A stretch of 37,048 bases of DNA from Oscillospiraceae bacterium (lineage in GTDB: Bacteria; Bacillota; Clostridia; Oscillospirales; Oscillospiraceae). Numbering within the stretch: the stretch's first letter is position 1; every line of letters begins with the position of its first letter. The notes beneath the pieces are model-generated. The model did not search any database. It was not told the DNA's origin and saw nothing but the letters and a program-made list of their open reading frames with translations. The position numbers and the translations under genes were made by a program. The stretch covers positions 1 through 37,048 of the forward strand of contig CACYLC010000010.1 of the NCBI GenBank assembly GCA_902775105.1, in the 5' to 3' direction. Below are positions 9,382 through 37,048 of the stretch, piece by piece.

Positions 9382-9384
9382 GGC

Positions 9385-12007: not shown

Positions 12008-12125
12008 AGACTCCACGCTCCTGTTTTTACATGATTCGCCGTAATTCGCTATGTCAAGTGTAGCACAAAATGCCCCAAAGGGCAACGCAAAAGCGGGCTT
12101 CCCGTTTTTTCTTTCCAATAAATTC

Positions 12126-12155
12126 CAAAAGCTCCCGGCAAGCCGGGAGCTTTTG
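12126..12155 (-). terminator. Hairpin between lipoprotein and ATPase genes (partial terminator)
   Basis: The stem CAAAAGCTCCCGGC pairs perfectly with CCGGGAGCTTTTG, with the T-rich 3' arm acting as the U-run. It lies directly after the binding-protein stop. Such a hairpin commonly lets a binding protein be made in excess over the membrane parts by partial termination or 3'-end protection. Confidence 0.75.
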
Positions 12156-12167
12156 AAGTTAAAGTGA

Positions 12168-23893: not shown

Positions 23894-24277
23894 TCAGTTG
23901 AGGTTGTTCTGCTCCCGCAGCACGTTGATGGGCGTGACCAGAATCTGTCCCTGACCGTCCAGCATGTTGTCCGGCAGGAACAGACGCTCACTGGTGTCCA
24001 GCCCCTCAAAGGTGAAGCCCAGCAGCTCCGTGATCTCCCGCTCCGCCCACTCAGCGGCGGCGGAGTAGATCGGTTCGATGGAGGGGACAACGGACTCGCC
24101 CACCACCTCGTAGGAGGCCACTTCGGCGCCCAGAGAGTAGTCATAGGTGATGACGGGCTGGTTCTCCTTGTTCAGATGGCCGTGGATCATAATGAGGAGT
24201 CGGCCCTCGTCCCGCATCTTCTGCGCGGTGGGAATGATCTCGTCCTTGGTGATGGAAATTTTCGTGTTGGTTTGCAT
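23894..24277 (-). CDS. NuoC-like hydrogenase subunit (MbhK/EchD type)
   Basis: The 127-residue protein belongs to the 30-kDa subunit family of complex I, found in group 4 hydrogenases as MbhK/EchD. It packs against the NiFe large subunit on the cytoplasmic side. The family block AEWAEREITELLGFTFEGL (about 77-95), followed by RLFLPDNM, is clear. It is shorter than NuoC, about the size of EchD. ATG 24277 has AAGGCGGTG upstream. It lies 17 bases after hypE at the far end of the operon, separated from all other structural subunits by the hypFCDE genes, which is unusual. Confidence 0.85.
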   Translation of the reverse strand: MQTNTKISITKDEIIPTAQKMRDEGRLLIMIHGHLNKENQPVITYDYSLGAEVASYEVVGESVVPSIEPIYSAAAEWAEREITELLGFTFEGLDTSERLFLPDNMLDGQGQILVTPINVLREQNNLN

Positions 24278-24294
24278 GATTGACACCGCCTTAT

Positions 24295-25296
24295 TTAGCA
24301 TATTCTGGGGAGTTGGGCTCCCGTCAATTTACTCAGCACCCGGCCTCCGCCGAGGAAGGTGTTTAAGATCACTTTCCCGGGGGCTCTCCGGGTGATACGG
24401 CCGATGACCGCCGCCTCCGCCCCGCCGGGGGTATTCCGCAGGGCATTCCGCACAGCCTCCGTCTTGTCCGGAGCGACCACCGCCAGCAGCTTGCCCTCGT
24501 TGGCACAGTAAAGCGGATCCAAACCCAGAAGGTCACAGGCCGCCTGCACCGGGGCGTGGATGGGAAGGTCGTCGGATTCCAGCTCCACAGAAAAGTCTCG
24601 CGCCTCCGTAAACTCGTTCAGCGTCGTGGCAACACCGCCCCTGGTGGGGTCTCTCAGCACCCGGACACCGCCGCAATCGAGGGCTGCCTGCGCCAGCTTG
24701 TGAAGGGGCTGGCAATCGGAAGTGAGGGGACTGCCCTCCAAAAGGCCGTTTCGAGCCATCATCACCGTGGCTCCATGGTCGCCGATGGAGCCGGAGATCA
24801 CCACTGCATCCCCCTCTCGGATGTTGTCGGGAGACAGGCCGGGGCAGGCCAGCGTGCCGATACCGGAGGTGTTGATATAGATGCCGTCTCCCCTGCCCCG
24901 CTCGACCACTTTCGTGTCGCCGGTGACGATCTCCACCCCTGCTTTTTGCGCTGTTTCCGCAATAGAGGTCACAATACGTCTCAAATCCTCCACCGGAAAA
25001 CCCTCCTCAATGATAAAGGAGAGGCTGAGATACCGGGGAATGCCGCCGCACATGGCAAGGTCGTTCACCGTGCCGCAGACGGACAGTTTTCCAATGTCTC
25101 CACCGGGGAAAAAGAGGGGGCTGACCACAAAGCTGTCGGTGGAAAAGACCAGATCGCCGCCCAGATGCAGCACCGCCCCGTCGCCCAGGGCGTTGAGGGC
25201 TTCGCTCCGAAAGGCGGGGAGCAACAGTTCTTCAATAAGCTGGCTGGTCTTGCGACCGCCGCTGCCGTAGTCCAGTGTAATAATGTCCTGCGTCAT
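24295..25296 (-). CDS. hypE: Hydrogenase maturation protein HypE
   Basis: The 333-residue cytosolic ATP-dependent dehydratase converts the thiocarboxamide on its C-terminal Cys into a thiocyanate. This gives the cyanide ligands of the NiFe centre. The C-terminus ends LPRIC, the required acceptor Cys. The N-terminal GSGGRKTSQLIEELLLPAF (about 10-28) and ATP-binding segments VFSTDSFVVSPLFFPGGDIG and DPTRGGVATTLNEF are typical of the PurM/HypE fold. ATG 25296 lies four bases after the hypD stop. The longer frame to 25491 only shadows hypD. It partners with HypF just upstream. Confidence 0.97.
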   Translation of the reverse strand: MTQDIITLDYGSGGRKTSQLIEELLLPAFRSEALNALGDGAVLHLGGDLVFSTDSFVVSPLFFPGGDIGKLSVCGTVNDLAMCGGIPRYLSLSFIIEEGFPVEDLRRIVTSIAETAQKAGVEIVTGDTKVVERGRGDGIYINTSGIGTLACPGLSPDNIREGDAVVISGSIGDHGATVMMARNGLLEGSPLTSDCQPLHKLAQAALDCGGVRVLRDPTRGGVATTLNEFTEARDFSVELESDDLPIHAPVQAACDLLGLDPLYCANEGKLLAVVAPDKTEAVRNALRNTPGGAEAAVIGRITRRAPGKVILNTFLGGGRVLSKLTGAQLPRIC

Positions 25297-25300
25297 ATGG

Positions 25301-26395
25301 TTACTCGATTCTTCGATAATGATAGGCCGCCGCACACGCACCCTCGCCGGAGACCATACAGGGGCCGACGGGGTGATCCGGCTGACAGCGCCTGCCGAAC
25401 AGCGGGCAGTCCTGAGGCCGGAGCTGACCGCAGATAATCGCGCCGCAGCGGCAGCCGGTGGTGTTCTCCCGGTTCTGCGGCCGGAAGCCAAACCGCTTGG
25501 CGGCGTCGTAGTCCTGAAATTCTGTCCTCAGGCCCAGGCCGCTCTCCGGAATGTTCCCCAGCCCCCGCCAAATGTCAGCGGTCGGCTCCAACACATCGGC
25601 CATGAGCCGCTGGGCGGCGGTGTTGCCCTGTGGCGAGACCGCCCGAATGTACTCGTTTTCCATTGCCGGTCTGCCGTCCCGAATCTGGCAGAGCAGACGG
25701 TAGATGGCAGAGAGCAAGTCCCCCGTCTCAAATCCGGAGACCACGGCGGGAAGTCCGTACTCCTCCGGCAAAAACCGAAAGGCGTCCGCTCCCAGAATCG
25801 TTGCCACATGGCCGGGGCAGAGAAAGCCGTTCACCCGGAAGTCCGGACGCTCAATCAATGCCCGGAGGGCAGGTTCTGTCCGTTTCAGCAGGCAGAGCAT
25901 GGAGAAATTCCGCAAGCCCCGGCGTTTTGCCTCCAGCACCGACAGCGCAGTTCCGGGTGCGGTGGTCTCAAAGCCGACCCCAAGAAAAACCACCTGTCTC
26001 GACGGGTTTTCTTCCGCAATGTCCAGACTGTCCATGGGAGAATAGACCCAGCGGACGTCCGCCCCCAGTGCCTTGCGGCGCTGCAAGCTGTCCTCCGGAT
26101 CCGACCCCGGCACCCGCATCAAATCGCCGTAGGTGGTGAGGATGAGACCGGGGATCTCACTGAGGCGCAGAATCTCGTCCATCACCCCGGAGGGCGTGAC
26201 GCAGACGGGGCAGCCGGGGCCGGAGAGAAGCCGGATATGGGGCGGCAACACCTGACGGAGGCCGGACTTGGCAATGGCCATGGTGTGGGTGCCGCAGACC
26301 TCCATGAGCCGGGTCTCGGGTAAGTCCATCTCCCGGATGGCGGAGAGCAGCTTCTCCGCTCCCTTTGGGCGGCGGAAGGCGGCCTCAGAGAGCAT
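25301..26395 (-). CDS. hypD: Hydrogenase maturation protein HypD
   Basis: The 364-residue [4Fe-4S] protein, with HypC, is the scaffold on which Fe(CN)2CO is assembled. Conserved cysteine blocks are MEVCGTHT (about 32-39), GPGCPVCVTP (about 60-69), CPGHVATI (about 194-201) and the C-terminal cluster-binding set TGCRCGAIICG ... DCPLFGRRC ... GPCMVSGEGAC (about 307-355). GVGFETTAPG (about 136-145) is another family signature. Its ATG overlaps the end of hypC by 11 bases, showing tight translational coupling. Confidence 0.97.
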   Translation of the reverse strand: MLSEAAFRRPKGAEKLLSAIREMDLPETRLMEVCGTHTMAIAKSGLRQVLPPHIRLLSGPGCPVCVTPSGVMDEILRLSEIPGLILTTYGDLMRVPGSDPEDSLQRRKALGADVRWVYSPMDSLDIAEENPSRQVVFLGVGFETTAPGTALSVLEAKRRGLRNFSMLCLLKRTEPALRALIERPDFRVNGFLCPGHVATILGADAFRFLPEEYGLPAVVSGFETGDLLSAIYRLLCQIRDGRPAMENEYIRAVSPQGNTAAQRLMADVLEPTADIWRGLGNIPESGLGLRTEFQDYDAAKRFGFRPQNRENTTGCRCGAIICGQLRPQDCPLFGRRCQPDHPVGPCMVSGEGACAAAYHYRRIE

Positions 26396-26603
26396 CGGCC
26401 ACCTCCTGAATGGCTTTCAGGTTTTCCAGCGCCTGCTTTTCGTTCAGTTTTTCAATGGCGAAGCCGGCGTGAGCAATGACGTAGTCCCCCAGCTGGGGGT
26501 TGTGGAGAAAATCCACCCGGATTTTGCGGCGGACGCCCTCCAATTCGCCGATGGCGTCGTTGCCGTCAATTTTCGTCAGCTTCAACGGTACTGCTAAACA
26601 CAT
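26385..26603 (-). CDS. hypC: Hydrogenase maturation chaperone HypC
   Basis: The 72-residue protein begins MCLAVPLKL, with the essential Cys2 exposed after Met removal to bind the iron fragment and pass it to the large subunit. The core HNPQLGDYVIAHAGFAIEKL (about 34-53) is the standard HypC/HupF signature. It overlaps hypF by ten bases and hypD by 11. Only one hypC copy is seen in the window, consistent with one hydrogenase client. Confidence 0.96.
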   Translation of the reverse strand: MCLAVPLKLTKIDGNDAIGELEGVRRKIRVDFLHNPQLGDYVIAHAGFAIEKLNEKQALENLKAIQEVADAL

Positions 26604-28840
26604 GGAATTCCGCCTCCTCCGGCGGCAATCAGCGTCTGCCCCAGGGCGATGCCCTGATCGTTGGGAGACACCTGGGTATGGTAATAAGGCACGAATCCTG
26701 CCTCCGTCAGTACGTCCGACACGCGGGACAGGAGATAACGGTTTTGAAACACGCCGCCGGAGAGGACGACTCGGCAGAGTCCGGTTTTCTCTCTGGCAAA
26801 TGCTGCGTGGGCGACCGCCAGGGAGACAAGGCTCTCCATAAAACGGACGGCGATGGACGCGGGTTCCATTCCCTCCGCCCGATCCGCCATGATTGCGGCA
26901 ATGAGCGGCCGGGTGTCCAGCGTCCGGCGCTCGTCCTCCTCGTAAAAGGTGAGGTCGTAGGGCGGCAGCTTTTCCTCCGAGGCCATGGCCTCCAACAGGA
27001 CGGCGCCCTGCCCCTCGTAGGTGACGGTCTGCCGCCCGGTCACAAGGGCATACACGCCGTCAAAGAGCCGTCCCATGCCGGAGGATCCGGGAGAGTTCAA
27101 GTCAGATGTCAGCATTTGTGTGAGCTGGTTTGCAAGCGGATGCCGACTTTGTTCGCCCAGCCCGGCGTCCCACAAGAGACTGTGGGCGATGCGGCCGATC
27201 TCCCTGGCGCACTTGTCGCCGCCGGGGAGTTTGATCGGCCGAATGGAGCCGGTTCGCTGAAACCCGGCATAGCCGCCCACGAGACATTCCGCTCCCCAGA
27301 TGGTTCCGTCCGTGCCGTAGCCGGTGCCGTCCCAGATGAGGCCGATGCAGTCTCCGTCAAGGCCGTTATCTCCCATACAGGCGGCCATGTGGGCGTGGTG
27401 GTGCTGGACTTGGACAAGGGGCAGTCCTCCCTCCCGACTGCGCCTGCGGGCGTATTCCGCGGAAAGATAGTCCGGGTGGAGATCGCAGGCAAGGCGTCTC
27501 ACCGCCACGCCAAAGCGCTGTTCAAAGCGCTCGATCTGCTCCTCGTAGAACCGAACCGTCTCCCAGTCCTTCAGGTCTCCGATGTGCTGGCTGAGGAAGG
27601 CGCTCTGCCCCCGGCTGAGGGCAAAGCTCCCCTTCTGCTCCGCTCCGCAGGCCAGAATGCCGGTACAGTCCGCATTCAGGTGAATCGGCTCCGGGGCATA
27701 GCCCCGGCTGCGGCGGAAGAAATAGTCACGTCCCCGAAAGACCCGGAGAAGTGTGTCGTCACAGCGATTCACGATCTCCCGGTCATGGGTCAGGACGGCA
27801 TCCGCCAGCCTCCGCCACGGAAACTGTTCGACGTCACACCGCACCGGCTGGTCAGAGACATTCATGCTGGTCATGACCAGCAGATCATATGGCTCCATCA
27901 ACAGATGGTGAATGGGGGTGTAGGGTAACATAACACCCAGTTCTCTTGTCTCGCTGAGCAGTTCGGGCGCTTCGGGGCGCTTTCTCAGCAGGACGATGGG
28001 CGCTCTGGGGCTGCCCAATCTCGCCTCCTCGTCTGGGGAGACAAGGCAATATTGCCTTACAACGGATAGATCCCGGCACATGAGGGCAAAGGGGCGCTCA
28101 TCCCGCCGTTTGCGGCGGCGCAATTCCGCTACGGTCCGGGGCAAATCGGCCCGGCAGGCCAAATGATAGCCGCCCAGACCCTTAACCCCCACGATGCCGC
28201 CATCTTGCAAAATCTGCTGAGCGGCGGCGATGGGGTCGCTGTGCTCCTCTCCCTCAGGGGTGAGGAGTTTTAATTGCGGGCCGCAGTTGGGGCAGCAGTC
28301 CGGTTGGGCGTGATAGCGGCGGGTCTCGATGTTCTCATACTCCGCCTGACAGACCGGACACATCTGAAACCTCCTCATGGAGGTCAGCGCCCGGTCGTAG
28401 GGAAGCTCTCTGATGATGGTAAATCGAGGGCCGCAATTGGTACAGTTGATGAAAGGATAGCGATACCGCCGATCTCCGGGAGTACGCAATTCCCGGAGAC
28501 AATCCGGACAGGTGGCGATATCCGGGCTGATGAGGGTGTCGGGGCTTCCCGCTCTGCGGCTTTGCAGGATATGAAAGCCCGGTTCCCCTGTGGGGGCGGC
28601 ACCGTCCGTCATCCGCACCTTACTGACGCGGGCAAGGGGCGGCGGCTCCCGGGTCAGGGCGGTGCAAAACTGCGTCAGGGCATCAGGCGCGCCCTCCAGC
28701 TCCAGCTCCACCCCAAACACCGTGTTTCTGCACCAGCCGGCAAGGTCATATCTGCTCGCCAGCCGGTGGAGAAAGGGGCGAAAACCCACCCCCTGCACAA
28801 TGCCCTCGATCTCCAGATGGATGCGGCAGAGGTCAGGCAT
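26594..28840 (-). CDS. hypF: Carbamoyltransferase HypF
   Basis: The 748-residue enzyme turns carbamoyl phosphate into carbamoyl-AMP and loads it on HypE as the source of CN ligands. Domain order is complete. An acylphosphatase-like domain (about 1-90) has IVQGVGFRPFLHRLA. Two zinc fingers with CxxC pairs (about 105-185) include CPDC, CTNCGP, CPVC and CPNCGP. A YrdC-like domain (about 200-385) begins near GGIVGVKGLGGYHLAC. A Kae1-like domain has VQHHHAHMAACM (about 470-481). Length is the usual 750 residues. Its ATG overlaps the ferredoxin subunit gene by eight bases. Confidence 0.97.
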   Translation of the reverse strand: MPDLCRIHLEIEGIVQGVGFRPFLHRLASRYDLAGWCRNTVFGVELELEGAPDALTQFCTALTREPPPLARVSKVRMTDGAAPTGEPGFHILQSRRAGSPDTLISPDIATCPDCLRELRTPGDRRYRYPFINCTNCGPRFTIIRELPYDRALTSMRRFQMCPVCQAEYENIETRRYHAQPDCCPNCGPQLKLLTPEGEEHSDPIAAAQQILQDGGIVGVKGLGGYHLACRADLPRTVAELRRRKRRDERPFALMCRDLSVVRQYCLVSPDEEARLGSPRAPIVLLRKRPEAPELLSETRELGVMLPYTPIHHLLMEPYDLLVMTSMNVSDQPVRCDVEQFPWRRLADAVLTHDREIVNRCDDTLLRVFRGRDYFFRRSRGYAPEPIHLNADCTGILACGAEQKGSFALSRGQSAFLSQHIGDLKDWETVRFYEEQIERFEQRFGVAVRRLACDLHPDYLSAEYARRRSREGGLPLVQVQHHHAHMAACMGDNGLDGDCIGLIWDGTGYGTDGTIWGAECLVGGYAGFQRTGSIRPIKLPGGDKCAREIGRIAHSLLWDAGLGEQSRHPLANQLTQMLTSDLNSPGSSGMGRLFDGVYALVTGRQTVTYEGQGAVLLEAMASEEKLPPYDLTFYEEDERRTLDTRPLIAAIMADRAEGMEPASIAVRFMESLVSLAVAHAAFAREKTGLCRVVLSGGVFQNRYLLSRVSDVLTEAGFVPYYHTQVSPNDQGIALGQTLIAAGGGGIPCV

Positions 28841-29318
28841 CTGCCTTGGGTTCCTCTGCTTTGGCGGCAGCCTTTGCCGCCTTGGCGGCCTCCGCCTTGG
28901 CCTTCATCTCGGCGATCTGCTCCGGGGTCAGCTTGGGTTTGGGTGGGGGCGCTTTTTTGATAAAGGAGCCGGTGACGATAAAGTCCTCAGGCTGGGTGCC
29001 CACCATCATATAGTCATCTGTCAGGGTGATGGAATGACGGGAGCAGAAATCGGCGCACATACCGCAGAAGGTGCAGCTGGTAAGGTCAAAGGTAAAGGTG
29101 ATCTTCTGATCGCCGTTTTCCAGCGTCTCGATGTCCCGGTGCATACACTGAGGGGCGCAGACCCGCATACACATACCGCAGTTGACGCAGACATCCGGGT
29201 TATAGGAGATACGCCCACGATACCGCTCGGCGGCCTGAGGAGCGTCTCCAACGGGAAACTTCTCCGTGCTGGGCTTGCGGAACAGGTTCGTCATGGCTTT
29301 TCCGAGATAGGGAAGCAT
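28833..29318 (-). CDS. Ferredoxin-type hydrogenase subunit (NuoI/MbhN-like) with Ala/Lys-rich tail
   Basis: The 161-residue protein has two [4Fe-4S] motifs, CVNCGMCMRVC (about 44-54) and CTFCGMCADFC (about 79-89), each CxxCxxCxxxC with the distal Cys supplied as CAP or CSR. It should relay electrons from external reduced ferredoxin to the small subunit. After the family domain ends (about residue 115) there is a Pro-rich hinge (APPPKPKLTP). A helix built almost only of Ala, Lys and Glu follows (about 130-161), which I do not know from archaeal MbhN. Start ATG 29318 overlaps the upstream stop (TGATG); a GTG one codon earlier is a possible alternative. Confidence 0.88.
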   Translation of the reverse strand: MLPYLGKAMTNLFRKPSTEKFPVGDAPQAAERYRGRISYNPDVCVNCGMCMRVCAPQCMHRDIETLENGDQKITFTFDLTSCTFCGMCADFCSRHSITLTDDYMMVGTQPEDFIVTGSFIKKAPPPKPKLTPEQIAEMKAKAEAAKAAKAAAKAEEPKADA

Positions 29319-29764
29319 CACTTTCGCATCTCCTTTCTCTTTTCTTTCAAAATCTCCGTCGCTTTGGCAAGGGCGGCTACGATGGCCTCCGGCTTGGGCG
29401 TGCAGCCTGCCACGGACACATCCACATGGGTCCACTTGTCCAGGGGACCGTCGATGGAATAGCTGCCCTTAAAGACATTGCCGGACTTAGGGCAGGAGCC
29501 AAGGCTCACCACCACGTAAGGCTCCGGCACCTGCTCCAGCACCCGCCTGAGACGGTCACGGGTCTGGAGGGTGATGGGGCCGCTGACGACGACGATATCC
29601 GCCTGACGGGGCGTTCCGGTGAGGCGGAAACCGAATCGTTCGGCGTCGTACCGGGGGGTCAGCACGCTGACCAGCTCAATGTCGCAGCCGTTGCAGGAGC
29701 CGGCGTTGACGTGAAAGATCCAAGGGCTTTTCGCCATGCTGTTGTCAATCAGTTTTTCAAACAT
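29318..29764 (-). CDS. [NiFe] hydrogenase small subunit (NuoB/MbhJ-like)
   Basis: The 148-residue electron-transfer subunit holds the proximal [4Fe-4S] cluster next to the NiFe site. The four ligands are visible: two in SCNGCDIELVS (about 21-31), one in SLGSCPKSG (about 88-96) and one in VAGCTPKPEAI (about 116-126). As in complex I and group 4 hydrogenases, it is the short NuoB form without the extra clusters of uptake hydrogenases. The start is set at ATG 29764 because AGGAGG lies upstream; a TTG at 29773 overlaps that site. It follows the NuoH-like gene by 15 bases. Confidence 0.93.
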   Translation of the reverse strand: MFEKLIDNSMAKSPWIFHVNAGSCNGCDIELVSVLTPRYDAERFGFRLTGTPRQADIVVVSGPITLQTRDRLRRVLEQVPEPYVVVSLGSCPKSGNVFKGSYSIDGPLDKWTHVDVSVAGCTPKPEAIVAALAKATEILKEKRKEMRK

Positions 29765-29779
29765 TGGGCTCAAACCTCC

Positions 29780-30748
29780 TTACAGCCCCAGCCAGACCAG
29801 AATCAGGCTGATCAGCGCCAATCCTGCCACAAAAGTCCAGTAGAACTGAAAGACCTGTTCTACCTTGAACCGGGCGCAGGCGGCGTGGGGCAGGCTCATG
29901 GTGATAAAGGTGAGCAGGACGCAGACCAGAATGAAGATTACCACATCCACCGCCACGATGCCAGTGGAAATGCCTCCCAGGAAGAGGACATAGAACAGGG
30001 CGGTCATGATGTACATCTTCACCATGTGGGTGAGCCGGAATACCGCCAGAGGAGGTCCGCTGTACTCGGAGAGCGTGCCCTCGCAGATCTCTGTCTCCGC
30101 CTCGGCAATGTCGAAGGGATGCATCCCCACCTCACAGGGGATGACGAAGAGCAGGGCAATGGCGGCGGGGATCAGACTCCAGTGGGCGATCAGCGGGCCG
30201 TTGACCGTCTGATAGTCCCAAATCGCCTGAAGGGAGAAGGTCATGGGAAGGCCGGAATCGGCGGTCAGCGTCACCTTGCTGATGGCCAAAATGACGAGGA
30301 CGAAGGGCAGCTCATAGGAGATCATGGCCACCATCTCACGGCTGAGACCTACGCCGGCAAAGGGAGATCCGGAGGCGGCGGCGCCCACGATCATGCAGAC
30401 GCTGACCAGCGTGAGCAGATAGAGGATGACCACCAGATCGGCAGTGCCGGAGAAGGCAGGCTTTCCGCCCACTACGGGGAGGAACAGGGCAATGGTAATG
30501 AGGGCAGCGAAGCCCACCACCGGGGCAGCGAAATAGACCGCCTTTTTCGCGTGGCGGGGGACAATGGTCTCCTTGCCGCAGCATTTGAGGAAGTCATACC
30601 AGCCCTGCAGCAGGGGTGGACCCACACGGCGCTGCATCCGGGCCACCCAGATCCGGTCGAGGCCGGAGAGCAGGATACCCATGAGGATGCAGAAGAACAG
30701 GCCGGGGAAAATCAGAACGTAAAACAGGTTCCAAAGCAGTGCAGTCAT
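29780..30748 (-). CDS. Membrane-anchor hydrogenase subunit (NuoH/MbhM/EchB-like)
   Basis: The 322-residue integral membrane protein has about eight helices. It belongs to the NuoH family, which bridges the NiFe module to the ion-pumping arm. GLDRIWVARMQRRVGPPLLQGWYDFLK (split at about 30-56) is the characteristic first loop, and IPCEVGMHPFDIAEAETEICEG (about 201-222) is the acidic loop at the quinone-site equivalent. ATG 30748 has AGGAGGGG at seven bases. It lies 15 bases after the large antiporter subunit. Confidence 0.94.
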   Translation of the reverse strand: MTALLWNLFYVLIFPGLFFCILMGILLSGLDRIWVARMQRRVGPPLLQGWYDFLKCCGKETIVPRHAKKAVYFAAPVVGFAALITIALFLPVVGGKPAFSGTADLVVILYLLTLVSVCMIVGAAASGSPFAGVGLSREMVAMISYELPFVLVILAISKVTLTADSGLPMTFSLQAIWDYQTVNGPLIAHWSLIPAAIALLFVIPCEVGMHPFDIAEAETEICEGTLSEYSGPPLAVFRLTHMVKMYIMTALFYVLFLGGISTGIVAVDVVIFILVCVLLTFITMSLPHAACARFKVEQVFQFYWTFVAGLALISLILVWLGL

Positions 30749-30763
30749 CTCTTTTCCCCTCCT

Positions 30764-32704
30764 TTACAGTACGATCACACAGACCAGCAGGACAAGGGCA
30801 ATGGCCACCACGCCGTAGAGGGTGTAGTCATTGACAATGCCGCTGTGCCAGTCGTGCATAAAGCTGAAATACTTGCGCCAGCTGTGCTTGAAGCCCCAGA
30901 ACAGGTCGCTGCCGCCCACCTGAGAGTAGAGGGCCTCCTCGCCGGAGAAGAAGGACTCATACTTATCATCCCGTTCTTCGGCAGTTTCATCCTTGGAAGA
31001 AATGTGCAGCTTGCTGTTGTCGTTGGGGCTTGCCAGCAGGGCGACAATAGCCACGCCGCAGGTGACGCAGAACAGGAGCAGCAGCCAGGAGACCGGGTTC
31101 CACACGCCGGTAATGGGGACCTCTGTCAGTCCGCTCACATAGATCCCGTGCGCGGCGGCGTAGCCTGCGCCCATGGCGGAGTCGATATAGGCCGTCAGGT
31201 TGGCTACGGCGCTGACCGCCGGGGTGAGCAGATAGGTCTGGACAAAGTTGGGGAAAAGTCCGGTGACGACGCAGAGCACTGCCAGCACCCACATGGGAAG
31301 GCGCATGGCGAGAGGCACTTCCCTGACCTCCCTGTACTGCTCCGGGAGCTGTCCAAAAAAGACGCTCTGGGACACCTTGACGAAAGAGGCCAGCGTCAGG
31401 ACGCTGGTGATCAGCGCAACGACCGCAACCATGATGTAGAAGAAGTTGCCGTCATAGACGCCCTTGAGGAAGGCCGCCTGATAGATCAGCCACTTGGAGG
31501 CAAAGCCGTTGAAGGGGGGCAGGCCGCTGATGGAGGCGGCGCCGATCAGGAACAGCAGTGTGGTCTTGGGCATTTTCTTGGAAAGGCCGCCCAGACTGTC
31601 CAGATCCAGGCTTCCCGTCTGATGCTGTACCGCGCCGGCAGTCAGGAAGAGAAGTCCCTTGAAGATGGTGTGGTTCATGGCGTGGTAGAGGCCGGCGCTC
31701 AGGCCGAGGGCGGAGCCGAGACCCACCACGGTGATGACATAGCCCACCTGAGAGATGGAGTGGAAGGCCAGCAGCCGCTTGAAGTTGTGCTGGTTAAAGG
31801 CCATGGTGACGCAGACGAACATGCTGACAGCGCCAAAGCCGGTGACCAGATAGCTCACGAAGGGGGTGTTGATGTTCTGATAGAGAACGTAGACCAGCCG
31901 GATGATGCCGTACACGCCGCACTTGGTCAGAACACCGGAAATCATCAAAGAGATGGAGGCGGGCGCCACAGCGTGGGCATCGGCGGCCAGGGGGTGGAAG
32001 GGGAACAGGAACGCCTTGGTGCCAAAGCCCATAAAGAGGAAGGCGAAGGCGGCGATGGTGACGAGGTTGCCTCCCTGGCCGGGGATCAATGCGGCGATCT
32101 GCGCCAGATTCAGGGTGTGCAGCTGGGAGTAGATCATGGCAATGCCCAGCAGCACAGAAGTAGAACCCAGCGAACCGACCACCAGATACTTCAGCGCGCC
32201 TTCCAGCGCACCCTCATAGCTGGTGCGGAAGGCGGTGAGCGCCACGGCGGTGAAGGTCATGATCTCGATCATGACGAAGATGTTAAAGAGGTCGCCGGAG
32301 AGCACCAGACCCAGCACAGAGCCGGAGAGCATGAGAAACAGGGTGTAGTAATTCACCAGGGAATCGTCATGGTTCATATAGGTGAAGGAGTAGATGCCGG
32401 AGACAAAGACAGCCACGGTGACGATGAGTCCGAAGAAGAGACTCAGGGCGTCCACCTCAAGGCTGATGCCGATGGCCCAGCCCTCTACGGGAGTCCAGCC
32501 GCCCAGCCAGTAGGCGACGATCTGGCCGTCCAGCAGGACGGGTTTGATGAGCGCCAGCATCATAGCAAGCGCTCCGGTGACGGAGATCGCCACCACCACA
32601 TTCCGAGCCACGGCGTTGCGGCGGCCCACCAGAGAGGTGACAAAGGCCCCGACAAAAAGCGTCATAATCGCCAGAATGGGGAAGTTTTGCAGAAAGCTGT
32701 TCAT
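30764..32704 (-). CDS. Mrp/NuoM-type antiporter subunit (MbhH-like), extended C-terminus
   Basis: The 646-residue integral membrane protein is of the proton-conducting antiporter family (MrpD, NuoL/M/N). It has about fourteen helices plus an extension. Family landmarks are the Glu-bearing VMIEIMTFTAVALTAF near residues 140-155, the Lys/His-rich KAFLFPFHPLAADAHAVAPASISLMISG (about 223-250) and HSISQVGYVITVVGLG (about 315-330). After about residue 520, a polar stretch rich in Asp/Glu/Lys leads to WRKYFSFMHDWHSGIVNDY and one last helix. This resembles the separate MbhI/lateral-helix element of archaeal Mbh and may be fused here, since no separate gene for it exists in the window. Its ATG overlaps the upstream stop. 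Confidence 0.93.
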   Translation of the reverse strand: MNSFLQNFPILAIMTLFVGAFVTSLVGRRNAVARNVVVAISVTGALAMMLALIKPVLLDGQIVAYWLGGWTPVEGWAIGISLEVDALSLFFGLIVTVAVFVSGIYSFTYMNHDDSLVNYYTLFLMLSGSVLGLVLSGDLFNIFVMIEIMTFTAVALTAFRTSYEGALEGALKYLVVGSLGSTSVLLGIAMIYSQLHTLNLAQIAALIPGQGGNLVTIAAFAFLFMGFGTKAFLFPFHPLAADAHAVAPASISLMISGVLTKCGVYGIIRLVYVLYQNINTPFVSYLVTGFGAVSMFVCVTMAFNQHNFKRLLAFHSISQVGYVITVVGLGSALGLSAGLYHAMNHTIFKGLLFLTAGAVQHQTGSLDLDSLGGLSKKMPKTTLLFLIGAASISGLPPFNGFASKWLIYQAAFLKGVYDGNFFYIMVAVVALITSVLTLASFVKVSQSVFFGQLPEQYREVREVPLAMRLPMWVLAVLCVVTGLFPNFVQTYLLTPAVSAVANLTAYIDSAMGAGYAAAHGIYVSGLTEVPITGVWNPVSWLLLLFCVTCGVAIVALLASPNDNSKLHISSKDETAEERDDKYESFFSGEEALYSQVGGSDLFWGFKHSWRKYFSFMHDWHSGIVNDYTLYGVVAIALVLLVCVIVL

Positions 32705-33054
32705 TATCCGTTCAACCTCCTGATCTCTCTGGTGTCAAGGGTGCCGTACTGCTTTCTCAGCATCATGACAAGGCTGAGGCTCATGGCGGTGGTACAGGCG
32801 CCGATGACGATGGAGGTAAGGGTCAGTGCCTGAGGTACGGGATCCACGAAGAAGCTGGCCCGGGTCAGCTCGGCAATGGTGAAGATGGGGGCGGTGCCGC
32901 CGGCATGGAAGCCGACAGAGACGATGAGCAGGTTGGCGCCGTAGTCCACCAGACCCATGCCGATAATCACTTTGACCAGATTGTGTTTGGCCACCATGCA
33001 GTAAAGGCCGAGCACGATCAGCGCAAAGGAGCCGATAAAGTTGACGATCATCAT
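32704..33054 (-). CDS. mnhC: Mrp subunit C (NuoK/MbhG-like)
   Basis: The 116-residue three-helix protein is of the NuoK/MrpC family and lies next to the large antiporter subunit in the membrane arm. LVKVIIGMGLVDYGANLLIV (about 26-45) is the second helix, where NuoK carries its conserved Glu; here the matching region shows Asp38 (VDYGAN). The segment DPVPQALTLTSIVIG (about 71-85) is the diagnostic MrpC block. It overlaps mnhB by four bases (ATGA) and the next gene by one base. Confidence 0.92.
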   Translation of the reverse strand: MMIVNFIGSFALIVLGLYCMVAKHNLVKVIIGMGLVDYGANLLIVSVGFHAGGTAPIFTIAELTRASFFVDPVPQALTLTSIVIGACTTAMSLSLVMMLRKQYGTLDTREIRRLNG

Positions 33055-33527
33055 TTGGGATCGGCCTCCTTTCCTTCCGCGGAAATTTGGTTCTTTTCGT
33101 CCTCGTCCGGCTCCAGCGTGCTGAGCATCAGAATGAGGAGACAGGCGATACCGGCCATGACGTGATAGCCCACGGCGTCGTTCATCAGGTTACTAGTCTC
33201 GAACCGGTGTCCGGCAAAGACGAAGTTGACAGCGAAGTTCAGACCGGTAAAAATGCCGATCAGGGCAATGACCACATACATGATCTCCGCCACCGTCTCA
33301 CTGCTGTGGAGCATCCGTTCGCTGAAGCTGCCCTTCACCCGGCCCCCGCCGTAGCCCAAAAAGACCAGCAGGATGGCGCTGGCGATCAGCACGCCGCCCT
33401 GAAAGCCGCCGCCGGGACTGGTGTTGCCGTGAAAGACCACATAGCAGCCGAACACGCAGGCTAAGGGCAGGAACAGATCGGCGGCACAGCGGACGATAAT
33501 GTTCTTTTTCCGGAATTTCGACTTCAT
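33051..33527 (-). CDS. mnhB: Mrp subunit B (MnhB/MbhF-like)
   Basis: The 158-residue membrane protein has four predicted helices and the MnhB signature FHGNTSPGGGFQGGVLIASAILL (split at about 32-54). It corresponds to MbhF of archaeal membrane-bound hydrogenases and to MrpB of Na+/H+ antiporters. The cytoplasmic tail after residue 135 is short and highly charged. It overlaps neighbours on both sides by four bases, so stoichiometric translation is likely. Confidence 0.92.
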   Translation of the reverse strand: MKSKFRKKNIIVRCAADLFLPLACVFGCYVVFHGNTSPGGGFQGGVLIASAILLVFLGYGGGRVKGSFSERMLHSSETVAEIMYVVIALIGIFTGLNFAVNFVFAGHRFETSNLMNDAVGYHVMAGIACLLILMLSTLEPDEDEKNQISAEGKEADPK

Positions 33528-33901
33528 GCCTCTTCCTCCTTCCCCTCGGCGGATTCGGTTTGCATCCCCGCCGTCTTGCGGAGGATGACCAGAGAACCGG
33601 CAATGGCGGCGATGAGGATAAAGCTCTCGCCCATGGTGTCGTAGCCGCGGAAGTTAAAGACCACAGAGAACACCACGTTCTCGGCGGCGGTCTTGTCCAG
33701 ATTCTCGTTGACGATGATGGACGCCACGCCGTCGGCATTGGTGTTGTCATAGTCCTGGGGATTTTCGTACAGCGCCACCACGTCGGTCTCGGCGCCGTCG
33801 TAGGTGGGCTCGCTCCCTGCCATGAGAATGGCGGTATAGACACCGCAGGCAAGGAGGATGACCAGCGAAATGGTCAGAAAGAGTTTCTTCCCTGCGCTCA
33901 T
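33524..33901 (-). CDS. MbhE-like subunit (MrpA C-terminal segment)
   Basis: The 125-residue membrane protein has one N-terminal helix (about 5-28) and one C-terminal helix (about 92-112), joined by an extracytoplasmic loop of about 60 residues rich in Asp, Asn and Glu. The block VVFNFRGYDTMGESFILIAAIAG (split at about 80-102) is the conserved end of MrpA and matches MbhE of Pyrococcus-type hydrogenases. The outer loop seems longer than the short MbhE form. It was identified by the motif and by its exact position between DUF4040 and MnhB genes. Confidence 0.8.
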   Translation of the reverse strand: MSAGKKLFLTISLVILLACGVYTAILMAGSEPTYDGAETDVVALYENPQDYDNTNADGVASIIVNENLDKTAAENVVFSVVFNFRGYDTMGESFILIAAIAGSLVILRKTAGMQTESAEGKEEEA

Positions 33902-34164
33902 TGCTCATCCTCCTCTGCTCTCACCTTGTGCAGGGCGATGATGTACAATACGGTGGAGAGGACGGCGCCCACGCTTGCCTCAGCAATGGCCACGTCCGGA
34001 GCCTGGAGCAGAATGAACTCCAGCGCAATAAAGGAGCCGGTGGCGGCCAGCGCAATGACCGAGTCGATCATCTTTTTCGCCTGCACCGCCACGACGGCGG
34101 CGGCGACTGCGCCGACAACGGCAAGGGTATTCAGGACGAATACCAGAATTCCGTTCAGATTCAT
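33898..34164 (-). CDS. DUF4040 subunit (MbhD/MrpA C-terminal domain-like)
   Basis: This 88-residue protein consists of nearly three hydrophobic helices. Helix 2-3 region AATGSFIALEFILLQAPDVAIAEASVGA (split at about 40-67) holds the conserved Pro-Asp-Val-Ala and Glu of the DUF4040/MbhD family, residues linked to ion passage in MrpA and MbhD. It is coupled to its neighbours by ATGA overlaps. In Mrp antiporters this domain is fused inside MrpA; as in archaeal Mbh it is a separate gene here. Confidence 0.88.
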   Translation of the reverse strand: MNLNGILVFVLNTLAVVGAVAAAVVAVQAKKMIDSVIALAATGSFIALEFILLQAPDVAIAEASVGAVLSTVLYIIALHKVRAEEDEQ

Positions 34165-34499
34165 TCCGGATCATCCTCCTTATAGTCGTCAATGGCCAGC
34201 TCCTTAGAAGGCTTCACGCCCATCTTGTAGGCTGCCTTGCACAGAGCGTGGTTGGAGATGGGGTTGGTGCCCATGACCAGCAGCAGGAGCACCGCCAGCT
34301 TAACGTAAGTAACCGTCTCTCCGGCATTTGCGATGGCATAGAGGATACCGGCAATGACGATGGAAATGGTTCCCATGGTGGCGATGCAGGTAGAGGCCTG
34401 CAGTCTGCCGAATACGTCGGGCATCCGATTGACGCCCAGCACACCCACAAGGATGAAAAAGACGCCCAGCCCCAACAGAATATCAATGGCAATACGCAT
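34161..34499 (-). CDS. mnhG: Mrp subunit G (MnhG/MbhC-like)
   Basis: The 112-residue membrane protein has three helices and a charged cytoplasmic tail. GVLGVNRMPDVFGRLQASTCIATMG (split at about 21-45) is the MnhG signature with its RMPD motif. MGTNPISNHALCKAAY (about 78-93) is the second conserved block. It is part of the E-F-G group that opens the membrane module, three bases after mnhF and overlapping the DUF4040 gene. Confidence 0.93.
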   Translation of the reverse strand: MRIAIDILLGLGVFFILVGVLGVNRMPDVFGRLQASTCIATMGTISIVIAGILYAIANAGETVTYVKLAVLLLLVMGTNPISNHALCKAAYKMGVKPSKELAIDDYKEDDPE

Positions 34500-34502
34500 C
34501 GC

Positions 34503-34757
34503 TTACAGCCTCCCTTCCAGATAGCGGGCCACAAAGACGGTACCCACGAAACCCAGAAGCGCCACCACCAGAGCAATATCCAGATAGATCGCCCGTCCGG
34601 TGTAGAGGGAATAGAGCACCAGCGCCAGAGCGGAGACCAGATCCAGTGCATCGGCGGCACACATCCGGTCAGCGGCGGTAGGACCGCGGAAGATACGGAA
34701 GAGCAGGAACAGGTTCAGCACCACGCAAATGATGGCGGCAATCAATAATTCGATCAT
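34503..34757 (-). CDS. mnhF: Mrp subunit F (MnhF/MbhB-like)
   Basis: The 84-residue three-helix protein has RIFRGPTAADRMCAADALDL (about 21-40), the MnhF signature. The start is set at ATG 34757, which overlaps the mnhE stop as ATGA and has GGAGG upstream; a TTG two codons earlier is less likely. The small hydrophobic subunit is required for Mrp complex assembly in known systems. Confidence 0.92.
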   Translation of the reverse strand: MIELLIAAIICVVLNLFLLFRIFRGPTAADRMCAADALDLVSALALVLYSLYTGRAIYLDIALVVALLGFVGTVFVARYLEGRL

Positions 34758-35287
34758 TTCCAAATCCTCCCGATCCAGCGCTCCATCCGGCCCTTAATGG
34801 CCTCGCCCGCCTTTTCCCGGTCGGACTCGGCCACGTTGATCCAGTGGACGTAGTAGTAGTTTTTGCCATCCTCGTCCTCGGCCACATCCATGGTGATGGT
34901 GCCGGGGGTCAGGGTGATGCAGTTGGACACCATGGCAAGGCCGTATTCGCTCTTGATCTTCTCCGAGCCTGGCACCCGGATAATGCCGGCCTCATACTTC
35001 AGCTTGGGGCTGAGCACCAGCTTTGCCATGGAGAGGTTGGCCTTGATGACCTCCCACAGGAAGATGATGGCACAGTAGAAGATCAGGATCACCAGCCGCA
35101 CCGGGTTATATAAGTAGAACGCCTGATGATGGATCAGGAACCTCCCGGAGAAGGCGGCGACGACGGCGCTGACAATCCCGCCCAAAATCAGCTCTCTCGC
35201 CGCTACGGACCAGGTCAGCAGCAGCCAGAACAGAAAGCAGAAGATAAAGGTGGACAGCCAGACGAGAAATTTAGACGGTTTCTGCAC
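34754..35287 (-). CDS. mnhE: Mrp subunit E (MnhE/MbhA-like)
   Basis: The 177-residue membrane protein has two to three N-terminal helices (about 8-85) and a cytoplasmic domain of about 90 residues. The family block SEYGLAMVSNCITLTPGTITMDV (split at about 112-134) is clear, with NYYYVHWINV after it. GTG 35287 was taken as start because AGGAGG lies six bases upstream; the open frame runs 19 codons further back through the ribosome site and the hypB end. It is the first gene of the Mrp module, 17 bases after hypB. Confidence 0.92.
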   Translation of the reverse strand: MQKPSKFLVWLSTFIFCFLFWLLLTWSVAARELILGGIVSAVVAAFSGRFLIHHQAFYLYNPVRLVILIFYCAIIFLWEVIKANLSMAKLVLSPKLKYEAGIIRVPGSEKIKSEYGLAMVSNCITLTPGTITMDVAEDEDGKNYYYVHWINVAESDREKAGEAIKGRMERWIGRIWK

Positions 35288-35304
35288 GTTTTTCCCTCCT
35301 TTTC

Positions 35305-35964
35305 TCATTTCGCAATGGTTTCGTCGATGCGCTTGGACACCCACGCCGTCAGCTCATCCAGCCCCATTCCGTCTCTGCTGGAAACCCGAAAGACTTGAAT
35401 GTCGGGGTTGGCGGCTTTGGCATTTCGCTCCACACGCTGATCGTCGAATCCAAAGTATTCTTTCAAATCGTATTTGTTCATGGCCAGCGCATCCGAGGTG
35501 GCGAAGATCAGGGGGTACTTTTCCACCTTGTCGTCTCCCTCCGGGATGCTCAAAAGCGCCAATCGAAAGCTCTCGCCGATGTTGAACTCGGCGGGGCAGA
35601 CCAGATTGCCGATATTCTCCACAAAGAGGACGTCCAGCTTGTCCAGTTCAAATTCCGTCAGGATATGCTGGATGCTCATGGCCTCGATGTGGCACGCTCC
35701 GTCTGTGTCCAGCTGGACGACAGGGAGACCCAGAGCATGGATTTTGTCGGCGTCGATCTGGCCGGCGATGTCTCCCTCAATGACGCCAATGCGGTATCTC
35801 TCCCGCAGCCGGTCGATGAGGGACACGATGGTGCTGGTCTTGCCTGCTCCGGGGGAGCCCAGCACGTTGATGAGGCACACGTTGTGGCGGGACAGCTCCT
35901 CCTTGACGGCGTCGCTGACGTCCTCGTTCCACTCCATGACCTGATGCATGACTTTGATTTCCAT
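35305..35964 (-). CDS. hypB: Nickel-insertion GTPase HypB
   Basis: The 219-residue GTPase works with HypA to deliver nickel to the hydrogenase large subunit. The P-loop is GSPGAGKTS (about 36-44). IEGDIAGQIDADKI (about 70-83), DTDGACH (about 97-103) with the metal-binding Cys-His pair, VENIGNLVCPAEFNIGE (about 125-141) and the base-specific MNKYDL (about 173-178) follow. It lacks the N-terminal His-rich nickel store and the CxxCGC motif of some homologues, so nickel storage is not expected. It lies six bases after hypA. Confidence 0.97.
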   Translation of the reverse strand: MEIKVMHQVMEWNEDVSDAVKEELSRHNVCLINVLGSPGAGKTSTIVSLIDRLRERYRIGVIEGDIAGQIDADKIHALGLPVVQLDTDGACHIEAMSIQHILTEFELDKLDVLFVENIGNLVCPAEFNIGESFRLALLSIPEGDDKVEKYPLIFATSDALAMNKYDLKEYFGFDDQRVERNAKAANPDIQVFRVSSRDGMGLDELTAWVSKRIDETIAK

Positions 35965-35970
35965 AACTCG

Positions 35971-36312
35971 TCAATCGACCTCCAAGCTCTCTACATAAAA
36001 CTCTCTGCCCTGAAGCAACCTGAGCCGGATCCCGCCGCAGGCGGGGCATTCGATGTGGTGCTTGTCCACCTCGCCCTGCCAGCCGCATTCCTCACAGCGC
36101 ATGAGGATGGGGAGCTTTTCCATCTTCAATTTGGCTCCCTCCGCCACCGTTCCCTTGCTGATGAGGTCAAAGTAATACTGAATGCACTGGGGGACGACGC
36201 CGGAATAGTCACCGATCTTGATGCGTACCTCCCGCACCTTTTTCACACCGTGCTCTCTGGCGGCGTTTTCAGCAATGTCCAAAATGCTCTGGGTAATAGC
36301 CAGCTCGTGCAT
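35971..36312 (-). CDS. hypA: Nickel chaperone HypA
   Basis: The 113-residue protein binds nickel through the N-terminal MHE (His2). It has a structural zinc site formed by RCEECGW (about 72-78) and CPACGG (about 89-94), two CxxC pairs. It passes nickel to the large subunit together with HypB. Its ATG lies three bases after the stop of the large-subunit gene, so maturation and catalytic genes are co-translated. Confidence 0.97.
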   Translation of the reverse strand: MHELAITQSILDIAENAAREHGVKKVREVRIKIGDYSGVVPQCIQYYFDLISKGTVAEGAKLKMEKLPILMRCEECGWQGEVDKHHIECPACGGIRLRLLQGREFYVESLEVD

Positions 36313-36315
36313 GGC

Positions 36316-37048
36316 TCACCGATCCAGGCAGGAGAAGCAGGGGTCGATCGAGGCGACGATCAGTCCGGCGTCCGCCACGGTGTTGCCTTTCAGCATGACG
36401 GGGACGGTGGGCGCCGTCTTAAACGTCGGCACATGGATGCTGATCCGGTGGTTGGTCTGGCCGCCGTCGGTGACGACCTTATAGACCAGATGCCCCCGGG
36501 GCGCCTCGTGCCGGGCGACGAACTCGCCGGCAGGAACCTTGGGCATTTTGTTCCCCAGATTGATGGGGCCTTCCGGCAGCAGATCCACCGCCTGACGGAT
36601 GATCTTAATGCTCTCGTAGATCTCCAGCACACGGATGACCACACGGGCGTAGACATCGCAGGACTGCTGGACGGGGACGGCGAACTCAAAGTCGTTATAG
36701 GAGGAATAGGGAGCGTCCCGGCGGACGTCCATATCCACGCCGGAGGCTCTGGCGTGGGGGCCGACGGTACCCAGCCGGATGGCGTCCTCGGTGGTGAGCA
36801 CGCCCACACCCTTGGTACGCATGGCCAGCGTCTTGTCGCTCGTCAGGTAGTGGGTGATGGGACCCATCTTCTTTTCCAGATCGTCCATGGCAGCCAGGAT
36901 CAGCTTCCGCTTGTCGTCGTCAATGTCCCTCCGGGCGCCGCCGATGGTGTTCATGGCGTAGTTCACCCGGTTGCCGGTGACGGCCTCCAGCGTGTCCATG
37001 GTCTGCTCCCGGTCGTTCCAGATCTGCATAAACATGCTGTCGTGTCCC
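36316..37048 (-). CDS. [NiFe] hydrogenase large catalytic subunit (NuoD/MbhL-like), C-terminal part
   Basis: At least 243 codons of the 3' end are present; the 5' end is beyond the right edge, and the frame stays open to the edge, so the ATG at 37035 is internal. The segment LQIWNDREQTMDTLEA-like near the left of the fragment (here MQIWNDREQTMDTLEAVTGNR) and GPHARASGVDMDVRR are group 4/NuoD signatures. The protein ends DPCFSCLDR, giving the second pair of nickel-binding cysteines (CxxC) followed by Arg. No residues follow, so there is no C-terminal peptide for a maturation protease to remove. The N-terminal RxCGxC pair is not in the window. It opens the visible part of the operon. Confidence 0.93.
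   Translation of the reverse strand, partial: GHDSMFMQIWNDREQTMDTLEAVTGNRVNYAMNTIGGARRDIDDDKRKLILAAMDDLEKKMGPITHYLTSDKTLAMRTKGVGVLTTEDAIRLGTVGPHARASGVDMDVRRDAPYSSYNDFEFAVPVQQSCDVYARVVIRVLEIYESIKIIRQAVDLLPEGPINLGNKMPKVPAGEFVARHEAPRGHLVYKVVTDGGQTNHRISIHVPTFKTAPTVPVMLKGNTVADAGLIVASIDPCFSCLDR

Follow-up and report, generated by a model that had tools for sequence, protein, structure and literature searches.

A 37,048-nucleotide contig of an Oscillospiraceae bacterium (contig C10, CACYLC010000010.1, assembly GCA_902775105.1, a draft genome of 1.81 Mb in 103 contigs that is 90% complete) ends in a 19-gene operon which very probably encodes an Mbh-type, ion-pumping [NiFe] hydrogenase together with its maturation kit. 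This complex would couple ferredoxin-driven hydrogen evolution to the export of sodium ions, protons or both. The window analysed here is the entire contig. All 19 genes lie on the minus strand, from the contig end down to position 23894, in the order large subunit (cut), HypA, HypB, MrpE, MrpF, MrpG, MbhD, MbhE, MrpB, MrpC, MrpD, NuoH, NuoB, NuoI, HypF, HypC, HypD, HypE and NuoC. Eleven of the 18 junctions are overlaps of 1-11 bases and seven are gaps of 3-17 bases, a layout that argues for a single operon. The same gene order is found again in other genomes, where some small genes are unlabelled, and it is therefore not due to chance.

Gene content, active site and membrane module

Each of the 19 genes matches its expected Pfam family. 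For 10 of them NCBIfam models also retrieve the expected families, mostly below the curated cut-offs, which are passed by HypE and by one NuoB subfamily model. A preliminary description of the window, made from its letters, had proposed a complete Mrp-linked [NiFe] hydrogenase operon of 19 same-strand, mostly overlapping genes, and this is confirmed: coordinates and strand hold, the NuoH-, NuoB-, NuoI- and NuoC-like subunits and the HypABCDEF set are all matched by Pfam (NuoC/MbhK being the weak one), the Mrp block runs E, F, G, MbhD (DUF4040), MbhE, B, C, D as described with Pfam matches for all eight, and the large subunit can be completed from a second contig.

The large-subunit gene is incomplete in the window, which ends inside it. 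A search of the same genome recovered 28 of its residues at the end of contig C76; the ends of C76 and C10 share 85 identical bases, and C76 encodes the N-terminal 117 residues. Read across this overlap, the completed protein has 360 residues, carries RVCGIC near its N-terminus and finishes with DPCFSCLDR, with no C-terminal tail. The occurrence of both RVCGIC and DPCFSC in one protein identifies it as a real hydrogenase; the nickel-binding CxxC noted earlier is thereby borne out, and absence of the N-terminal motif is excluded. The genome G003 (97% complete) holds the full-length gene on one contig, 99% identical to both pieces, and its product scores 294 bits against Pyrococcus Mbh (6cfw_L), 279 bits against Escherichia coli HycE and 222 bits against Thermus Nqo4 among the chains of the PDB.

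A complex that is related to hydrogenases and lacks hydrogenase activity, in the manner of Mbx, Mbs or Ehr, is hardly credible here. Mrp-linked relatives without nickel ligands do exist (PMC6349859), the MrpC of the operon is nearest to that of Mbs, and the cut large subunit is best matched in NCBIfam by models of the NuoD type, below cut-off. Against such a complex, both CxxC motifs are intact in all 31 clostridial-type large subunits examined, including the present one, and the operon holds the complete HypABCDEF set. The Thermus Nuo control is without both nickel-ligand motifs. The two motifs also rule out a NuoD-like non-hydrogenase, despite the sub-cut-off models.

Among solved complexes, Pyrococcus Mbh comes closest for the subunits L, H, J, M and E and for a fused MbhI. 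MrpD matches 6cfw_H over residues 9-514 (299 bits, E 8.1e-88; next match 194 bits), and its C-terminal 133 residues match Pyrococcus MbhI (6cfw_I, E 1.8e-5; next match E 0.13). MbhI is thus, as read from the sequence, a C-terminal fusion on MbhH, and the idea that it is missing was rejected. Residues E147, K230, K261 and K404 of MrpD have identical counterparts in the alignment with Pyrococcus MbhH and are invariant in 29 sequences. An AlphaFold model of MrpD-MbhI (predicted local distance difference test, pLDDT, 78; predicted template modelling score, pTM, 0.82) has an antiporter fold, and 6cfw_H ranks second in its Foldseek search, at 36% identity; residues 558-606 fall below pLDDT 50, so that for the fused MbhI part the evidence is that of the sequence. 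MbhE finds its best solved match in 6cfw_E, and NuoI matches 6cfw_N (E 1.3e-13) in second place behind a polyferredoxin. Counting the Pfam placements of MbhA, B, C, D and F, 13 genes would encode the 14 Mbh subunits that the PDB chain letters give.

Table 1. The 19 genes of the operon in transcriptional order, with supporting matches (6cfw, Pyrococcus Mbh).
Gene product	Coordinates	Strand	Evidence
Large subunit MbhL/NuoD-like, C-terminal 243 residues, first gene	36316..37048	-	PF00346 E 7.8e-73
HypA nickel chaperone	35971..36312	-	PF01155 E 5.5e-35
HypB nickel GTPase	35305..35964	-	PF02492 E 1.4e-16
MrpE/MbhA, 177 residues	34754..35287	-	PF01899 E 4e-38
MrpF/MbhB	34503..34763	-	PF04066 E 1.1e-16
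MrpG/MbhC	34161..34499	-	PF03334 E 1.8e-19
MbhD (DUF4040-type)	33898..34164	-	PF13244 E 8.9e-18
MbhE	33524..33901	-	PF20501 E 3.7e-6, 27.4 bits against a 27-bit cut-off; 6cfw_E E 2.4e-8
MrpB/MbhF	33051..33527	-	PF04039 E 5.7e-18
MrpC/MbhG	32704..33054	-	PF00420 E 6.4e-23
MrpD/MbhH antiporter-like with C-terminal MbhI, 646 residues	30764..32704	-	6cfw_H
MbhM/NuoH membrane anchor	29780..30748	-	6cfw_M 147 bits, next 92
MbhJ/NuoB small subunit, proximal [4Fe-4S]	29318..29764	-	6cfw_J 166 bits, next 107
MbhN/NuoI, putative electron entry, two [4Fe-4S] motifs	28833..29318	-	Fer4 families; 2 CxxCxxCxxxC
HypF	26594..28840	-	Five HypF domain families (Pfam)
HypC	26385..26603	-	PF01455 E 1.4e-21
HypD	25301..26395	-	PF01924 E 7.8e-141
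HypE	24295..25296	-	TIGR02124 416 bits, cut-off 252 bits
MbhK/NuoC-like, last gene	23894..24301	-	PF00329 E 2.9e-10

The start of MrpE was set at a GTG that follows AGGAGG, in place of the start at 35344 given in the list of open reading frames; the protein has 177-178 residues in four other loci (L033, L034, L038, L039). Elsewhere in the window, positions 8395-13463 hold a run of genes for a putative binding protein, a double ATPase and two permeases, which from their sequence we take to be a nucleoside-type ABC importer, and a divergent gene that we presume to be lysA-like lies upstream of the large subunit on C76.

Proposed electron donor, direction and coupling

In the proposed mechanism, reduced ferredoxin, for instance from pyruvate:ferredoxin oxidoreductase (PFOR), would be oxidised at the NuoI-like subunit, whose two [4Fe-4S] clusters would take up its electrons. 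By way of the NuoB-like cluster these would reach the Ni-Fe site in the large subunit and there reduce protons to hydrogen. The NuoH-like subunit may relay the energy to the Mrp-like module (E, F, G, MbhD, MbhE, B, C and the fused MrpD-MbhI), which would export sodium ions and/or protons, and a V-type ATPase could use the resulting gradient. The sequence itself shows the gene content, the active-site and cluster motifs, the conserved charged residues, the PFOR and, in a genome that is 90% complete, the lack of matches to Rnf, Ech, CODH and molybdopterin oxidoreductase; donor, direction, coupling and exported ion are inferred.

Pfam finds in the operon no input module for formate, CO, NADH or F420, and the 90% complete genome returns no match for carbon monoxide dehydrogenase (CODH) or for molybdopterin oxidoreductase (PF00384). 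Ferredoxin is therefore the simplest donor, and the earlier proposal of this donor is plausible. A PFOR gene (TIGR02176, 993 bits) is found on C76 some 9 kb upstream, its 5' part cut by the contig start. The further suggestion that such a fermenter could gain energy from ferredoxin without Rnf or Ech stands in so far as neither the Rnf-Nqr family nor a second PF00346 group-4 large subunit such as Ech was found in the genome; Rnf, CODH and molybdopterin oxidoreductase are likewise without a match in G003, whose large subunit is 99% identical. It is qualified by a monomeric group B1 [FeFe] hydrogenase on contig C72 (L266:2323-3783; TIGR04105, 529 bits, cut-off 450), whose neighbours we take to be truB- and ribF-like genes. 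The presence of this second hydrogenase means that the Mbh is probably not the sole ferredoxin outlet.

The same enzyme raises the question of direction. It is conceivable, if unlikely, that in the gut the complex runs in reverse, so that gradient-driven hydrogen oxidation makes low-potential ferredoxin for biosynthesis while the B1 enzyme evolves hydrogen. Besides the presence of B1 in this genome, the B1 class is reported to drive gut hydrogen production (PMC12578642), and the HydDB table lists group 4e as physiologically reversible (PMC5037454). On the other side, no redox-driven ion pump other than this complex appeared in the genome, which lacks an Rnf match, among those searched for, and the authors of the Caloramator celer work ascribe ferredoxin oxidation to the homologous cluster (PMC3715667, PMC3986597). 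For the preferred direction, hydrogen evolution with ion export, a consumer of the gradient may be at hand: a V-type ring subunit of 162 residues (contig C28; L203, L216), a double hairpin with the motifs LPGTQG, YQG and VVEFY, is the only ring subunit found in the genome, where none of the F type was found. We read these motifs as sodium ligands on the model of Enterococcus hirae NtpK, and take the gene neighbours on C28 to be those of a V/A-type ATPase.

If this holds, gut and rumen fermenters that lack Rnf would gain ion-gradient energy from ferredoxin while releasing hydrogen, the main feed of methanogens. The Mrp-linked clostridial hydrogenase family may be under-recorded in gut and rumen surveys, and its full gene context would provide a concrete hypothesis for survey sequences of the 4g type.

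Phylogenetic placement, spread and the genus

Several observations weigh against the reading as an Mbh-type pump. The best solved match of NuoC/MbhK is 6cfw_K with a weak E of 0.0046; MbhA, B, C, D and F are placed through Pfam and not through Pyrococcus chains; and MrpC scores higher against Mbs (6u8y_G, 110 bits) than against Mbh (6cfw_G, 82 bits). The genome is 90% complete, so that the absences of Rnf, CODH and molybdopterin oxidoreductase are provisional. The parts of the literature available hold no biochemical data that we could find on a clostridial Mbh. In a tree of large subunits, Pyrococcus MbhL joins hydrogenases with a complex-I-like arm (94/80), and a tree of J, M and L together rejects a clade of the clostridial type with Pyrococcus (approximately unbiased, AU, test, p 0.014).

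The large-subunit tree comprises 66 chosen proteins, the present one and 30 others of the clostridial type among them, and three PDB chains (69 large subunits, 67 different rows); it draws on 18 of the 80 related loci described below. The 31 clostridial-type rows, including Thermobrachium and Caloramator, form one clade (100/99), separate from that of the Ech-type rows. The grouping of MbhL with the complex-I-like set rises to 96/86 on removal of the long rows (HycE, CooH-type and L231). When clades with the clostridial type are forced on L, the AU test gives p 0.055 for Pyrococcus, p 0.48 for HycE and p 0.25 for the complex-I-like set. The J+M+L tree, from which Hyc and Mbs were left out, places CooH-type complexes as sister to the clostridial clade (99/97). 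The union of Pyrococcus with the clostridial clade is not rejected by J alone (p 0.56, the forced tree being slightly better) or by M alone (p 0.21), and it appears at 83/52 when the CooH rows are omitted; the archaeal reference throughout is a single sequence, that of Pyrococcus, on a long branch. The label 'group 4d' is thus not secured by phylogeny and over-specifies the complex: MbhL falls outside the clostridial clade, their union is rejected on J+M+L, and on L (p 0.055) it narrowly escapes rejection.

The rows closest to Pyrococcus Mbh in the large-subunit tree are [NiFe] hydrogenases with complex-I-arm-like clusters (L217-L226 minus the CooH-type, L229, L232-L234). In 11 of these 14 loci three MrpD/NuoLMN-like genes stand beside NuoB, the large subunit and NuoH; Hyp genes occur in several, both nickel motifs are present, and a C-terminal tail follows DPCxxC.

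The position beside CooH-type complexes brings in a formate- or CO-driven hydrogenase of HydDB type 4a, 4b or 4c. In addition to the 99/97 sister relation, a clade with E. coli HycE is compatible with L (p 0.48), and the large subunit scores almost as well against HycE as against Mbh (279 and 294 bits). Such an enzyme is nevertheless very improbable: neither CODH nor a molybdopterin oxidoreductase is matched in the genome or the operon, and no Mrp E, F, G or B is labelled in the two CooH-type clusters (L227, L228). As its donor genes were not found in the genome, this candidate was rejected.

In HydDB the ferredoxin-coupled, Mrp-linked enzymes make up 4d; 4g is a loosely defined class whose function is unknown (PMC5037454). 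Cloacimonadota and Omnitrophota have Mrp-linked Mbh that were filed under 4g and predicted to be ferredoxin-coupled (PMC8542988); since other bacterial Mrp-linked Mbh are filed there, HydDB may place the clostridial complex in 4g as well. We tentatively entertain, and rather doubt, a wider proposal: that gut and rumen Clostridia hold an Mrp-linked lineage apart from archaeal Mbh, with a core nearer to the clostridial CO-hydrogenases, which constitutes 4g or part of it and is the sole redox-driven ion pump in Rnf-less species such as the present one.

Relatives are numerous. A GTDB genome scan with ten clostridial-type large subunits gave 500 stretches encoding relatives at any distance; in the best 80 (L088-L167) the large subunits are 69-92% identical. 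These include Thermobrachium celere, Caloramator australicus, Pseudoflavonifractor sp. An44, Lachnoclostridium sp. Marseille-P6806 and many rumen and gut metagenome-assembled genomes recorded as Oscillospiraceae, Ruminococcaceae or Lachnospiraceae, and the gene set is kept across distant Clostridia. Genes were labelled at E 1e-4 or better, with overlapping frames in competition and small subunits often unlabelled. Of the 80 loci, 77 have MrpE on the strand of the large subunit and downstream of it, and the other three reach a contig edge first. Two layouts occur: in that of the present operon HypFCDE and NuoC follow NuoI, while in the other the Hyp genes and NuoC precede the large subunit. The second is seen in 48 of the 50 loci L118-L167, including Caloramator and Thermobrachium; in the remaining two the contig begins at the large subunit. 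Of 394 genomes drawn evenly from the order, 10, the present one included, contain the type (at least 69% identity).

Three loci of Lachnospiraceae records (L106, L107, L110) have large subunits 81-86% identical to that of the present operon, placed outside the 17-row subclade that holds Caloramator, and no HypF is labelled between their NuoI and NuoC. They may point to transfer between families.

The NuoI-like subunit varies among the relatives. In the 64 of the 80 loci that could be scored (16 being cut or not found), it has two CxxCxxCxxxC motifs in 28, as in the present operon, three in 1, four in 24, six in 6, eight in 2 and ten in 3, which suggests that it has grown step by step into a polyferredoxin. 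In Ech-type clusters from the genus of the window (L036, L041, L048, L049) the motifs number 8-10.

Within the genus, 21 of 32 genomes hold Mbh (the present one among them), seven an Ech-type large subunit (G004, G009, G017, G018, G020, G028, G029), four neither and none both. The operon is therefore not unusual in its genus, nor is it exceptional more widely, with close relatives abounding and the C. celer cluster described in 2013-14. Rnf occurs in 12 of the 21 Mbh genomes, in all seven of the Ech type and in two of the four with neither; the MutS2 tree offers two independent pairs for this comparison, too few for a link between Mbh and the loss of Rnf to be read from these counts. On the best MutS2 tree, built from 30 genomes (the 32 without G005 and G008), the hydrogenase type needs five changes, and well-supported branches alone force two for Mbh, two for Ech and three for 'neither'. 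Exchange or loss of the hydrogenase type has therefore happened within the genus, and its split between Mbh and Ech-type species would be a natural setting in which to compare both machines.

Comparison with known systems

The kind of complex is already known. What the present operon adds is its gut and rumen spread, the H-I fusion, a permuted operon and an uncertain group label; none of these was found in the parts of the literature available, and we do not claim that they are unpublished. The Thermobrachium celere locus (L137), which by its name we take to be the organism of the C. celer papers, has all 19 genes labelled and a large subunit 71% identical to that of the query. It differs in that HypFCDE and NuoC stand before the large subunit, where in the query they come after NuoI, and its host is an alkalitolerant thermophile. 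In 2013-14 the enzyme of the C. celer cluster (TCEL_00187-00205) was described as Mbh-like and dependent on ferredoxin, and it was regarded as the only outlet that the organism has for ferredoxin (PMC3715667, PMC3986597). In 2019 Saganbacteria were reported to have a candidate Mrp-Mbh with relatives among the hydrogenases of Pelobacter propionicus and of Clostridia (PMC6349859).

Each subunit of Pyrococcus furiosus Mbh (6cfw) has a counterpart in the query, by Pfam or by PDB chain. We take the Pyrococcus complex to represent HydDB 4d and, from the chain letters, to share the order of the Mrp block. The query differs in its fused MbhH-MbhI and in the Hyp genes inside the operon; its first gene is L and its last is K, M precedes J and N, and its large subunit is not sister to that of Pyrococcus in the L and J+M+L trees.

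The Ech-type enzymes of the same genus resemble the query in a ferredoxin-type subunit, a single group-4 large subunit per genome and Hyp genes alongside. Their large subunits are 39-41% identical, and no Mrp E, F, G, B or C is labelled in the four of seven genomes whose gene content was compared (L036, L041, L048, L049). Ech (4e) is compact, with one antiporter-like subunit and without Mrp E, F, G and B; the query has the full Mrp block. The complexes nearest in the J+M+L tree (L227, L228), which we name CooMKLXUH-like from size and neighbours, differ in an antiporter-like subunit of 1274-1331 residues, a CooS-like neighbour of 637-649 residues and the unlabelled Mrp genes noted above. The CODH partner of CooMKLXUH (4c) was not found in the query genome, nor, in the lack of a PF00384 match, was the formate dehydrogenase partner of formate hydrogenlyase and formate-Mrp complexes (4a, 4b).

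A survey of the human gut names 4a and 4e among bacterial group-4 enzymes (PMC12578642), and a rumen survey lists 4a, 4c, 4e, 4f and 4g, the last functionally unresolved and highly transcribed. At the level of titles and abstracts no Mrp-linked hydrogenase is named for this genus, which does not show that there is none. By description alone, HydDB 4g resembles the present complex in being Mrp-linked and predicted to be ferredoxin-coupled.

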